33,514 nt of DNA from a virus: positions 1 to 33,514 of IMG/VR virus record IMGVR_UViG_3300030061_004579; one strand, 5' to 3'. A program made the position numbers and the translations under genes. This document shows, piece by piece, positions 17,925 to 20,240 of the stretch. Numbering within the stretch: the stretch's first letter is position 1; each line of letters starts with the position of its first letter. The notes below the pieces were generated by a model. That model saw nothing but the letters and a program-made list of their open reading frames with translations. It had not been told where the DNA came from and made no database searches.

Positions 17925-18899
17925 CTAAGCAACCTCACTCATCAAAGAGTCAGCCGGCGAAGCCGTCTTCTGAGGCTCCAGTACATGCGTGTACTTCATG
18001 GTAGTTTTGAGATGTTTATGCCCCAATAGTTGCTGAAGCGTTCGGATATCACACCCATTCTCCAGCGTATGCGTAGCAAAAGAATGCCGGAACGTGTGAG
18101 CCGTAACTCTCTTATCAATTTTGCACCGCCATTTTGCGCGTTTGATCGCTTTATTCACCGTACTGGAAGAAAGGTGGTGCCGGTGGGTAGTACCTTTGCG
18201 TGGGCACTGGGAAAGGTTATCCGATGGAAACAGAAACTGCCATCCAATCTCCTTATCTGCATTGGGGTATTTATCTTTCAGGGCCTTGGGAAGATTGGCT
18301 TTGCCCTCTCCTATAGCGAGATCCTTTCTGTGCTGTTCCTTCGCCCGGCCTATCTGGTTGCGCAGCATCGTGATCAATACTTTCGGCATCATAACCACCC
18401 GGTCTTTGGCTCCCTTCGCTTTCCGCACGTAGATACTCTGATTATCAAAGTCCAGATCAGTGATCCTGAGCCTAAGTACTTCATTGACACGCATCCCGGT
18501 GCCATACATCACCCACACGATCCGCTTCGCCCTTCCATCCGGCATAGCAGATATGATCTCCTTCACTTCCCGCTTGGAAAGCACCGATGGAAGCGACTTC
18601 GACTTCTTAGCATAATCCAGCTTCATATTCGATGTATCTTTACCCAACACGTCCCGAAACATCAGCACCAACGCCGAAAGCGCCTGGTTATGAGTGGAAG
18701 ATGCCACATCACGCTCATTCACCAGGTGATTCAGATATTCTTCAATCTCCTGCTTACCCATATCCGTAATTCTCGCCCCGGAATGGAACCCCGCGAACCT
18801 CCGGGCCCACTGCATATAATTCTGCTCCGTCTTATACGCCATACTTTTACGACGGATTTTGTTTTTCAATTCCCGTAAAACCTCATCATTCGTTTTCAT
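17925..18899 (-). CDS. intI: integron integrase (IntI-type tyrosine recombinase)
   Basis: 324 aa. It recombines attI with attC sites of folded single-stranded cassettes. The catalytic set is visible: R137 (YGTGMRVNE), a Lys in KAKGAKDR (160-167), H268 and R271 (HTFRHSF), H294 (LLGHKHLKTT) and Y303 (MKYTHV). Between the two Arg boxes lies the IntI-specific additional domain (about 196-245; NLPKALKDKYPNADKEIGW, then FLFPS and RHHLSSSTV), which separates integron integrases from XerC/D and phage integrases. The N-terminal SAM-like domain is also present. Length matches IntI proteins (310-340 aa). It lies in canonical orientation: intI pointing away from attI and the cassettes. It reads in the phage transcription direction and can be co-transcribed with the cassettes. 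It is the only recombinase in the window. Confidence 0.93.
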   Translation of the reverse strand: MKTNDEVLRELKNKIRRKSMAYKTEQNYMQWARRFAGFHSGARITDMGKQEIEEYLNHLVNERDVASSTHNQALSALVLMFRDVLGKDTSNMKLDYAKKSKSLPSVLSKREVKEIISAMPDGRAKRIVWVMYGTGMRVNEVLRLRITDLDFDNQSIYVRKAKGAKDRVVMMPKVLITMLRNQIGRAKEQHRKDLAIGEGKANLPKALKDKYPNADKEIGWQFLFPSDNLSQCPRKGTTHRHHLSSSTVNKAIKRAKWRCKIDKRVTAHTFRHSFATHTLENGCDIRTLQQLLGHKHLKTTMKYTHVLEPQKTASPADSLMSEVA

Positions 18900-19004
18900 G
18901 ATTCAATCATTTTTCAGTTATCGTTTATAGTAAGAGCGCTTACAGCACAATTCCTTACACTTAATTTTCGAGTTTAATCGGATCGGGTTAATGTTATGTT
19001 AGGT
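18900..19004 (+). other. putative attI site and intI control region
   Basis: The 99 bp between the intI start and the first cassette boundary. GTTAGGT at 18998-19004 fits the core-site consensus GTTRRRY; the cut would fall after G18998. The upstream part should contain the IntI binding sites. attI sites are poorly conserved, so the assignment rests on position between intI and the first cassette. Confidence 0.6.
18924..18950 (-). promoter_or_regulatory. possible intI promoter with palindrome in spacer
   Basis: On the minus strand TTGTGC (18945-18950), a 15-nt spacer and TATAAA (18924-18929) resemble a weak promoter. The spacer contains GTAAG-AGCG-CTTAC (18930-18943), an inverted repeat that could be an operator. 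In many integrons intI is LexA-controlled; I cannot match this to a known LexA box. Confidence 0.3.
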
Positions 19005-19286
19005 ACACTTGGTGCTTGCTTTAATTTTAGCGTACATCGTTGGATGAACTACCAAAGTTCCATCAGGCATTTTTATAGCTTTCGTAGATGGTTTTTTAAT
19101 CCAATTACTATCCTTCTCTCTGTAGCGCTTTCGCAACCAGTTCAAATATTTTATTCTTAAAATCCTCCAAACCTCAAATTTTCGAAGCCACTTGTAACTC
19201 CTGTACTTTGGATGATTCACCAACTTAAAATCAACTAAGTCATTAGATTGCACTATTCGGGTTCCAAATATTTCCTGTTCAAACAT
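18999..19286 (-). CDS. cassette 1 protein, unknown function
   Basis: 95 aa, strongly basic with Trp/Arg/Lys-rich segments (YKWLRKFEVWRILRIKYL, then NWLRKRYREK). A nucleic-acid or membrane contact is possible; I do not recognise a family. The start codon is 6 bp from the R'' box of attC A and the stop TAA overlaps the attI core (GTTAGGT), so the gene occupies the cassette from edge to edge. It runs opposite to attC polarity and along the phage transcript. Confidence 0.65.
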   Translation of the reverse strand: MFEQEIFGTRIVQSNDLVDFKLVNHPKYRSYKWLRKFEVWRILRIKYLNWLRKRYREKDSNWIKKPSTKAIKMPDGTLVVHPTMYAKIKASTKCT

Positions 19287-19408
19287 CGTGTACCTAACAA
19301 TTGTATCAAGCGGGACGCGGTTAAAGTCCCGTTCGATGGTTTCAGTTTTAGTTCAAAATTTTGCTTCTAAAGAGCGCCTAATCTTCCGCGCCCCTTATAC
19401 ATCACACG
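18999..19408 (+). mobile_element. integron cassette 1
   Basis: 410 bp unit from the attI core cut to the R' core of attC A. Its edges are TTAGGTACAC (18999-19008) and GTGTACCTAA (19288-19297), perfect 10-bp complements, as expected when the R'' and R' arms pair in the excised circle. It carries one gene, on the minus strand, that fills the unit; no comparable plus-strand gene is seen. Confidence 0.85.
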
Positions 19409-19414
19409 TTAAGT
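19292..19414 (+). other. attC A
   Basis: 123 bp. R'' ACCTAAC (19292-19298), 8-bp spacer, L'' CAAGCGGG (19307-19314), L' CCCCTTA (19391-19397), R' GTTAAGT (19408-19414). The left arm TAACAATTGTATCAAGC is very close to class 1 cassette arms (TAACAATTCGTTCAAGC). L'' and L' pair as GTAT-C-AAG-C-GGG against GTATAAGGGG, leaving an unpaired C at the position seen in Vibrio and class 1 attC sites. An inner hairpin CGGGAC/GTCCCG (19311-19331) resembles that of Vibrio repeats. Polarity by these asymmetric bases is plus strand. Confidence 0.9.
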
Positions 19415-19741
19415 GTACTTTTTAGGTAATACGCTCAAATCTACTGCCCCACCAGCACCCATAAATAGTTTCCAAGCTATTCTCCCATGGGGTTTTTCTT
19501 CCGGTTCCTGCTCGTTACCATATTGATCCAAGTTAATACCACAAGCCCCGCAATGCTCTATAATAGCCTGTACTAAAGTTTCCATATCATCCGCTTCTTT
19601 AATCCACGGTATAGCTATTAAATCAAGGTCAGTTACCACACTACCATGTATCGCTAATGCGTAACCGTGCTTTCTTGCTACTTCAGCAAGTCCGTTGTAA
19701 ATAACCGCATATGCTGGGGCTTTATTTGCCTTTTTCATCAT
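19409..19741 (-). CDS. cassette 2 protein, minimal nucleotidyltransferase-like
   Basis: 110 aa from the ATG at 19741. An in-frame ATG at 19831 would start inside attC B and overlap the neighbouring gene, so the shorter form is preferred. Residues 26-46 (GYALAIHGSVVTDLDLIAIPW) carry the Pol-beta superfamily signature: G-S at 33-34 and D-x-D at 38-40. Small proteins with this core are frequent in phages and annotated as hypothetical or nucleotidyltransferase-like; substrate unknown. The stop codon overlaps the R' core GTTAAGT. Start 8 bp from the R box, as in cassette 1. Confidence 0.75.
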   Translation of the reverse strand: MMKKANKAPAYAVIYNGLAEVARKHGYALAIHGSVVTDLDLIAIPWIKEADDMETLVQAIIEHCGACGINLDQYGNEQEPEEKPHGRIAWKLFMGAGGAVDLSVLPKKYT

Positions 19742-19746
19742 CGTAC

Positions 19747-19998
19747 ACTTAACAATAGTTTCAAGCGGACTTGCTTCCTGCCCGCTGTTCAAAATCATCA
19801 CAGGTTCGTCTATATCCGTAATCTGTGTCAACTGGGCTTTTCGGCCCTATAAATCTTGGCTTATGCCACTTACTACAAACAGGTGCGCACTCGCCTTTTC
19901 GGTTCGCTACAAAATGTTGGCAGTTATCACAATGTTTTACGCTCATAATCACTTAGTCTTTTCGAGTTAGCAAGCCGCTTAAACTTTCACCGTTATAA
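19747..19998 (+). other. attC B, unusually long with gene in the loop
   Basis: 252 bp. R'' ACTTAAC (19747-19753), 8-bp spacer, L'' arm GTTTCAAGCGGACTTGC (19758-19774), L' arm GCAAGCCGCTTAAAC (19970-19984), R' GTTATAA (19992-19998). The arms pair over 15 bp with only C19762 and A19769 unpaired; C19762 is the canonical extrahelical base. The 195-nt loop (19775-19969) contains most of a 61-63 aa gene. R' departs from GTTRRRY at one base but matches the neighbouring R'' of cassette 3. Confidence 0.8.
19761..19946 (-). CDS. Cys-rich small protein encoded inside attC B
   Basis: 61 aa from the ATG at 19946 (an ATG two codons upstream is possible). It has HCDNCQHF near the start, then CAPVC, then YRRTCDDFEQR, a five-Cys pattern typical of small zinc-binding phage proteins. 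The stop TGA lies within the L'' arm of attC B and 19 bp before the next cassette gene. Its coding quality suggests it is real although it occupies what should be the non-coding attC loop. Confidence 0.6.
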   Translation of the reverse strand: MSVKHCDNCQHFVANRKGECAPVCSKWHKPRFIGPKSPVDTDYGYRRTCDDFEQRAGSKSA

Positions 19999-20234
19999 AC
20001 CCTACGCTTTTAAGGCTTGTTCAATCGTGTAAAATCCATCAGTATAACCTCTGTTTACCTTTCTGGCTTTACTTTCTAAATCGCTATAGTTGGCGGCAAT
20101 TACTATATACGCACCAACTTGCTTAACAAGCATTTTTGGGTGCTTCTTTTCAAGGTTTTTTATAGCTGCAATTATTTCGTGATCTTCCATAATTAATCGG
20201 GTTTATAACAATTGTATCAAGCGGGACTGCACCG
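19993..20234 (+). mobile_element. integron cassette 3
   Basis: 242 bp. Edges TTATAAACCC (19993-20002) and GGGTTTATAA (20199-20208) are perfect 10-bp complements. It holds one minus-strand gene. Its attC is truncated and the unit abuts the stop codon of a phage gene. Confidence 0.75.
20002..20190 (-). CDS. cassette 3 protein, unknown function
   Basis: 62 aa: MEDHEIIAAIKNLEKKHP, then KQVGAYIVIAANYSDLESKARK, then a segment with YTDGFYTIEQAL. It looks like a small alpha/beta protein with alternating strands and helices. No family recognised. It starts 12 bp from the R'' box and ends in TAG 4 bp from the R' core, so like the other cassette genes it fills its unit and runs in the phage direction. 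Confidence 0.6.
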   Translation of the reverse strand: MEDHEIIAAIKNLEKKHPKMLVKQVGAYIVIAANYSDLESKARKVNRGYTDGFYTIEQALKA

Positions 20235-20240
20235 TTAAAA
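20203..20240 (+). other. attC C, truncated
   Basis: The left arm is nearly identical to attC A for 22 bp (AACAATTGTATCAAGCGGGAC), but no matching L' arm follows. Instead GTTAAAA (20234-20240), which contains the stop codon of the phage gene at 20235, follows after 14 bp. The right half has probably been lost or replaced by phage sequence. Confidence 0.65.

Follow-up and report, generated by a model that had tools for sequence, protein, structure and literature searches.

A 252-nt attC site with a 61-codon open reading frame in its loop, in a prophage integron array whose cassette genes run against attC polarity

Integrons carried by phages are known from Vibrio p16/p42, from Shewanella M16-3, from P1 with class 1 integrons and, as CALINs, from virulent phages, and phage attC sites have been recombined by IntI1 (Qi et al. 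2023, PMC9892861). The phage integrons in the available part of that paper resemble the arrays reported here in having IntI and/or attC arrays inside phages, but neither genes in attC loops nor gene-antiparallel cassette arrays are described there. When Shewanella M16-3 and Virus Rctr41k were scanned, their genes were found mostly on the attC top strand and their attCs were 78-131 nt long, unlike in the present arrays. The chromosomal integrons of the same genus and family share with these arrays a related IntI (about 50% identity) and the same arm-and-bulge pattern, but their attCs are mostly 88-147 nt long, with the gene upstream of the attC and on its top strand. Translated recombination sites that aid the next gene by coupling or fusion are represented by ORF-11, a translated leader in attI1 (PMC8876359), and by the fused cassettes of class 1 integrons (PMC4670013). 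However, ORF-11 lies in attI, and in fused cassettes an attC has been lost from one cassette, whereas the ORF described below occupies the loop of an intact attC and moves with its cassette. A limited search of the open-access literature found no report of protein-coding attC loops or gene-antiparallel cassette arrays.

The site of interest, attC B, was found at 19747-19998 of the window, by which we mean the whole stretch of 33,514 nt analysed here. It is 252 nt long, with its canonical top strand on the plus strand, and its boxes R'' (ACTTAAC, 19747-19753) and R' (GTTATAA, 19992-19998) conform to the attC pattern RYYYAAC...GTTRRRY. Between the boxes, the L'' arm AGTTTCAAGCGGACTTGCT (19757-19775, plus strand) pairs with the L' arm AGCAAGCCGCTTAAACT (19969-19985, plus strand), giving a stem with 17 paired bp and a loop of 193-195 nt. 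Both extrahelical bases, C19762 and A19769, are in L'', the 5' arm, as expected, and none is in L', which fixes the polarity of the site; the bottom strand, predicted to be the recombinogenic one, is the gene-sense strand. A strict attC finder, in which bulges are permitted solely in the 5' arm, gave the arms a score of 15; in 40 shuffles of the region, scores of at least 9.5-10 came up 0.05-0.075 times per 2.5 kb, and the highest was 10. (An earlier, looser hairpin score was dropped because it could not tell real sites from shuffles.) We conclude that attC B is a genuine integron-type attC site. An attC is usually about 57-145 nt long, and attC B falls outside this range. An Rfam scan of the window gave no match.

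A site stretched to this extent could be a dead relic that IntI can no longer use, with the cassette copies spread via homologous recombination between phages. The 193-nt loop indeed makes extrusion from double-stranded DNA unlikely. Nevertheless, the arms and bulges are intact, and when all 252 nt are folded as a single strand (bottom strand, DNA parameters), the attC B stem dominates the prediction, with a mean pair probability of 0.95. Together with the boundaries of the second cassette copy discussed below, this makes a dead relic unlikely in our view.

The array around attC B comprises three small cassettes between a minus-strand intI gene and a phage metallopeptidase gene that begins at 20235. 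The integrase (17925-18899, minus strand) belongs to the integron-integrase family (TIGR02249, 361 bits against a cut-off of 265) and is 42% identical to IntI1-type proteins. A putative attI (18900-19000) adjoins intI, with the array on the attI side, and its motif AACATA....TTA..CCGATCC/GG.ATAA is conserved before intI or an intI remnant in four phages (P1, P2, P3 and P4; see below). The array then comprises the gene of cassette 1 (18999-19286, minus strand, 95 aa), attC A (19292-19414, plus strand, 123 nt, with no gene-sized ORF in its loop), the body gene of the cassette to which attC B belongs (19409-19741, minus strand, 110 aa from its ATG; PHROG 35913, function unknown), attC B itself and the gene of cassette 3 (20002-20190, minus strand, 62 aa). 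The stop codon of the body gene sits in R' of attC A. At the outer end of the array is a remnant, attC C (20203-20240, plus strand), in which R''-L'' is followed directly by the R'-like GTTAAAA, without a loop and without L'; the finder did not recover it as a hairpin, and it may fix the end of the array. The same GTTAAAA provides the stop codon of the adjoining phage gene. The cassettes are delimited by pairs of boxes that match in inverted orientation (GTTAGGTACAC...GTGTACCTAAC, GTTAAGTGTAC...GTACACTTAAC and GTTATAAACCC...GGGTTTATAAC).

To place this array, four phage arrays with 22 complete attCs were considered: those of P1 and P2, P3 (a prophage of a sister species; genome G001, locus L087) and P4 (an IMG/VR phage; L071), all from one genus or close to it and two of them within one genome. 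In P1-P4, the cassette genes read against attC polarity, toward intI and along with the phage genes, so that the canonical arrangement, with the gene on the attC top strand and the attC 3' of the gene, was found in none of the four. Of 56 cassettes from the host-type chromosomal arrays of relatives and from two published phages, 47 have their longest ORF on the attC top strand. Since the orientation of the attCs relative to intI is the usual one in the phage arrays, their antiparallel genes place the attC 5' of the gene and the R' cutting point upstream of the loop. Phylogenetically, the three phage IntIs that are intact group together (98/97 support), next to the chromosomal IntIs of the family. 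Other IMG/VR contigs (L062-L070) have IntI-like genes but no convincing attC array, and the finder detected no coherent attC array in Polaribacter phage P12002L. We consider it probable that attC B is a working-type attC of a phage-borne integron with back-to-front cassettes, that is, with the attC 5' of the gene.

The loop of attC B is filled by a minus-strand ORF of 61 aa with five Cys (19761-19946), whose stop codon TGA (19763-19761) lies within L''. The first-pass annotation of this DNA had described arms that pair with two extrahelical bases and a loop of about 195 nt with a 61-aa Cys-rich gene ending in L'', and both descriptions agree with the 17-bp stem, its score of 15 against the shuffle maximum of 10, and the ORF coordinates. 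An ATG-started ORF of at least 55 aa arises in 3% of shuffles of the attC B loop composition, and the ORF alone is therefore weak evidence; its conservation in a second copy is the stronger argument. The last part of the 61-aa ORF is overlapped by another open frame (MILNSGQEASPLETIVKCTMMKK...), which continues via L''-R'' into the gene that follows. Between the end of the 61-aa gene and the start of the body gene there are 19 nt. A Shine-Dalgarno-like sequence is present at only some of the loop starts and is absent at the 61-aa gene. Searches with the protein in phages, plasmids, viral contigs, genome contigs and 245 genomes of the class recovered only two copies, both in loops, and pattern scans of the viral and genome contigs found none as an ordinary cassette gene; a case with its own attC, which would have spoken for a plain cassette gene, was thus looked for and did not turn up. 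A PDB search gave no match of weight, and AlphaFold gave no confident model (pLDDT 56).

The genome encodes the loop protein once more (90% identity), where contig C12 ends, and here too it comes immediately after an L' arm, one with the same sequence as in attC B. The body gene likewise has a single further copy (97%), at the end of C16. Read along the genes, the window agrees with the C12 end up to GGAAGCAAGTC and with C16 from GACCTTGATTT onward, and the 137 nt between the two matches were assembled only once, the gap holding the L''-R'' half of the second copy. Judged by this succession of matches, the two contig ends are very probably halves of one second cassette copy. The second copy has different neighbours on both sides, with similarity beginning and ending at the cassette boundaries, and these different neighbours argue that the loop gene and attC moved as one unit. 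Across a 335-nt stretch (19532-19866), no difference from the second copy was found wherever that copy is assembled. This identity fits a recent gene conversion or exchange, as expected if attC B were a relic copied by homologous recombination, but the copy boundaries coincide with IntI cleavage points and are not random. The two 61-aa copies differ at 11 codons, only 5 of them synonymously, which gives weak evidence of selection.

The same duplicated cassette bears on how the window itself is to be read. The window, which consists of prophage DNA, comes from contig C2 of a bacterial genome of 4 Mb (G000) and encodes an HK97-type portal and a head protease; a terminase was sought in the window and not found. 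Contig C12 (L037, matched at its end) carries a terminase and then cassettes, and contig C16 (L030, matched at its right end) carries cassettes, intI, a second terminase and further head genes. In all nine same-genus relatives, purN and recA are 1.8 to 4.0 kb apart; in G000, purN is on C12, and recA is found beyond the window's structural half on C2. The gene queD, which in G000 is on the early-gene side of C2, lies at least about 70 kb from recA or on another contig in these nine relatives. Because of this host gene order, we assign the left part of the window to C12 (prophage P1) and the right part to C16 (prophage P2), with the switch within 19532-19866, inside the duplicated cassette. The likeliest explanation on these sequence comparisons is that the window joins two prophages by misassembly at that cassette, although a true exchange between both prophages within the cell is also conceivable. 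The position and loop of attC B are unchanged under either explanation.

A short counterpart of attC B is present in P3, where a 130-nt attC (L087:12839-12968) has the same arms (GTTTAAGGGGCTTGC / GCAAGTCCCGCTTGAAAC). Translation frames also link the two sites: the loop start MSDKEEQPNSEQVPLETIV of the P3 site is read through the arm into a YopX protein, and a related frame, ...NSGQEASPLETIV..., can be read in the window, where the 61-aa gene now overlaps it with its final part. Because a relative with the same arms has an attC of only 130 nt, the loop of attC B has most likely been enlarged. It had been proposed in the first-pass annotation that two attC sites might have fused around a former cassette, and a complete gene in the loop would fit such an origin. 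However, the arms match each other with canonical bulges, there is a single R/L set with no inner R'/R'' boxes, the loop gene and the downstream gene recur together in a second array, and the 130-nt site has the same arms. We consider a fusion very improbable. The P3 array (G001 contig C1, L087, about 10.9-13.7 kb) has the same attC types, and its intI is reduced to a start fragment (MNTSKAVEAVRREIWRRNG and stop).

Coding loops are not confined to attC B, which is the largest example. An ATG-started ORF that begins in the loop, crosses L''-R'' and extends at least 20 codons into the body was found at 14 of the 22 complete phage attCs and at 7 of 67 control attCs from host-type arrays, read on the same strand (Fisher p = 2e-6), or at 11 of 22 phage attCs if the main cassette genes alone are counted (p = 2e-4); these p values are guides only, since the phage boundaries were set by hand and the arrays are related. 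As attC A and several other phage attCs lack a loop ORF, such loops are frequent but not universal. In two cassette proteins, a known domain begins right behind the attC-coded part, namely DUF551 at residue 48 (L030:15739-16086) and YopX at residue 25 (L087:12456-12899). In addition, a leader of the type M-K/N-D-S-x-K...KDATASDVEA-I/F-V (form MKDSxKSTKDATASDVEAIV), coded by loop plus arm, fronts four different bodies in the four phages, and among three of its four copies most of the differences are silent.

These observations have to be weighed against a simpler explanation, in which attC B belongs to an ordinary two-gene cassette, the 61-aa gene was inserted by chance and makes no difference to recombination, and the leaders of other cassettes have nothing to do with it. 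Chance can produce loop ORFs, as the 3% of attC B loop shuffles and the 7 of 67 controls indicate, and apart from attC B only its second copy holds a complete gene of such size, which is missing from the short relative. On the other hand, coding loops occur in all four phage arrays, mostly with the same reading frame across the arm, and both the single leader on four bodies and the domains that begin just past R'' are hard to reconcile with chance insertion, which we hold to be quite unlikely. The suggestion in the first-pass annotation that a recombination site had gained a gene was close to the mark, since the relative's short site, for which that annotation had advised looking, points to an enlarged loop. 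It went wrong in treating attC B as a single freak, as coding loops recur in these phages, and it missed the opposite polarity of genes and attCs, which makes the loop the 5' leader of the cassette.

Returning to attC B as a working-type site, we propose the following mechanism. Cleavage by IntI would fall at R', which flanks L' on the outside, and from 5' to 3' of the gene the mobile cassette would then consist of L' - loop - L'' - R'' - body. The body would always travel with its loop, which would be free to accommodate coding sequence and a start codon with its ribosome-binding site. Every cassette would have the orientation of intI and the phage operon, and transcription of the operon together with the phage genes would pass L', loop, L'' and body in that order. 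Translation would be initiated in the unpaired loop, and ribosomes passing through L'' would open the mRNA hairpin, so that it does not obstruct the body gene. The loop of attC B would have grown to a complete 61-aa gene, with the start of the body 19 nt further on being close enough for coupling. Recombination would take place on the single-stranded bottom strand, which is the coding strand, e.g., during phage replication, and a large loop would then come at a low cost for single-strand folding.

We tentatively go one step further and suggest that this phage lineage may have turned the integron round, with antiparallel cassettes, the attC loop as a portable translation leader, the recombination site as part of the coding sequence, and complete genes storable inside it; we regard this wider reading as possible rather than established. 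Such arrays would show a way for an integron to become part of a phage operon with no need of a cassette promoter, would test the upper bound on attC loop size, and would provide an example from nature of recombination sites that are constrained by coding. They also matter for annotation: attC searches that stop at a size near 200 nt, or that expect a gene followed by its attC, will miss or misread arrays of this kind. In the IntegronFinder paper, the figure of 200 bp concerns gene distance.

Several further cassettes in these prophages deserve mention. An attC B-like site of L087 (1743-1939, gene sense) has a complete ORF of 27 aa in its loop and an overlapping start of the next gene, in a frame unlike that of the other leaders. 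At L037:14867-15220, a cassette protein starts in the loop, and its CxxC...CxxC N-terminal half is coded by a 207-nt attC. The array of P2 also includes an RtcB RNA ligase gene (L030:13246-14400) as a cassette.
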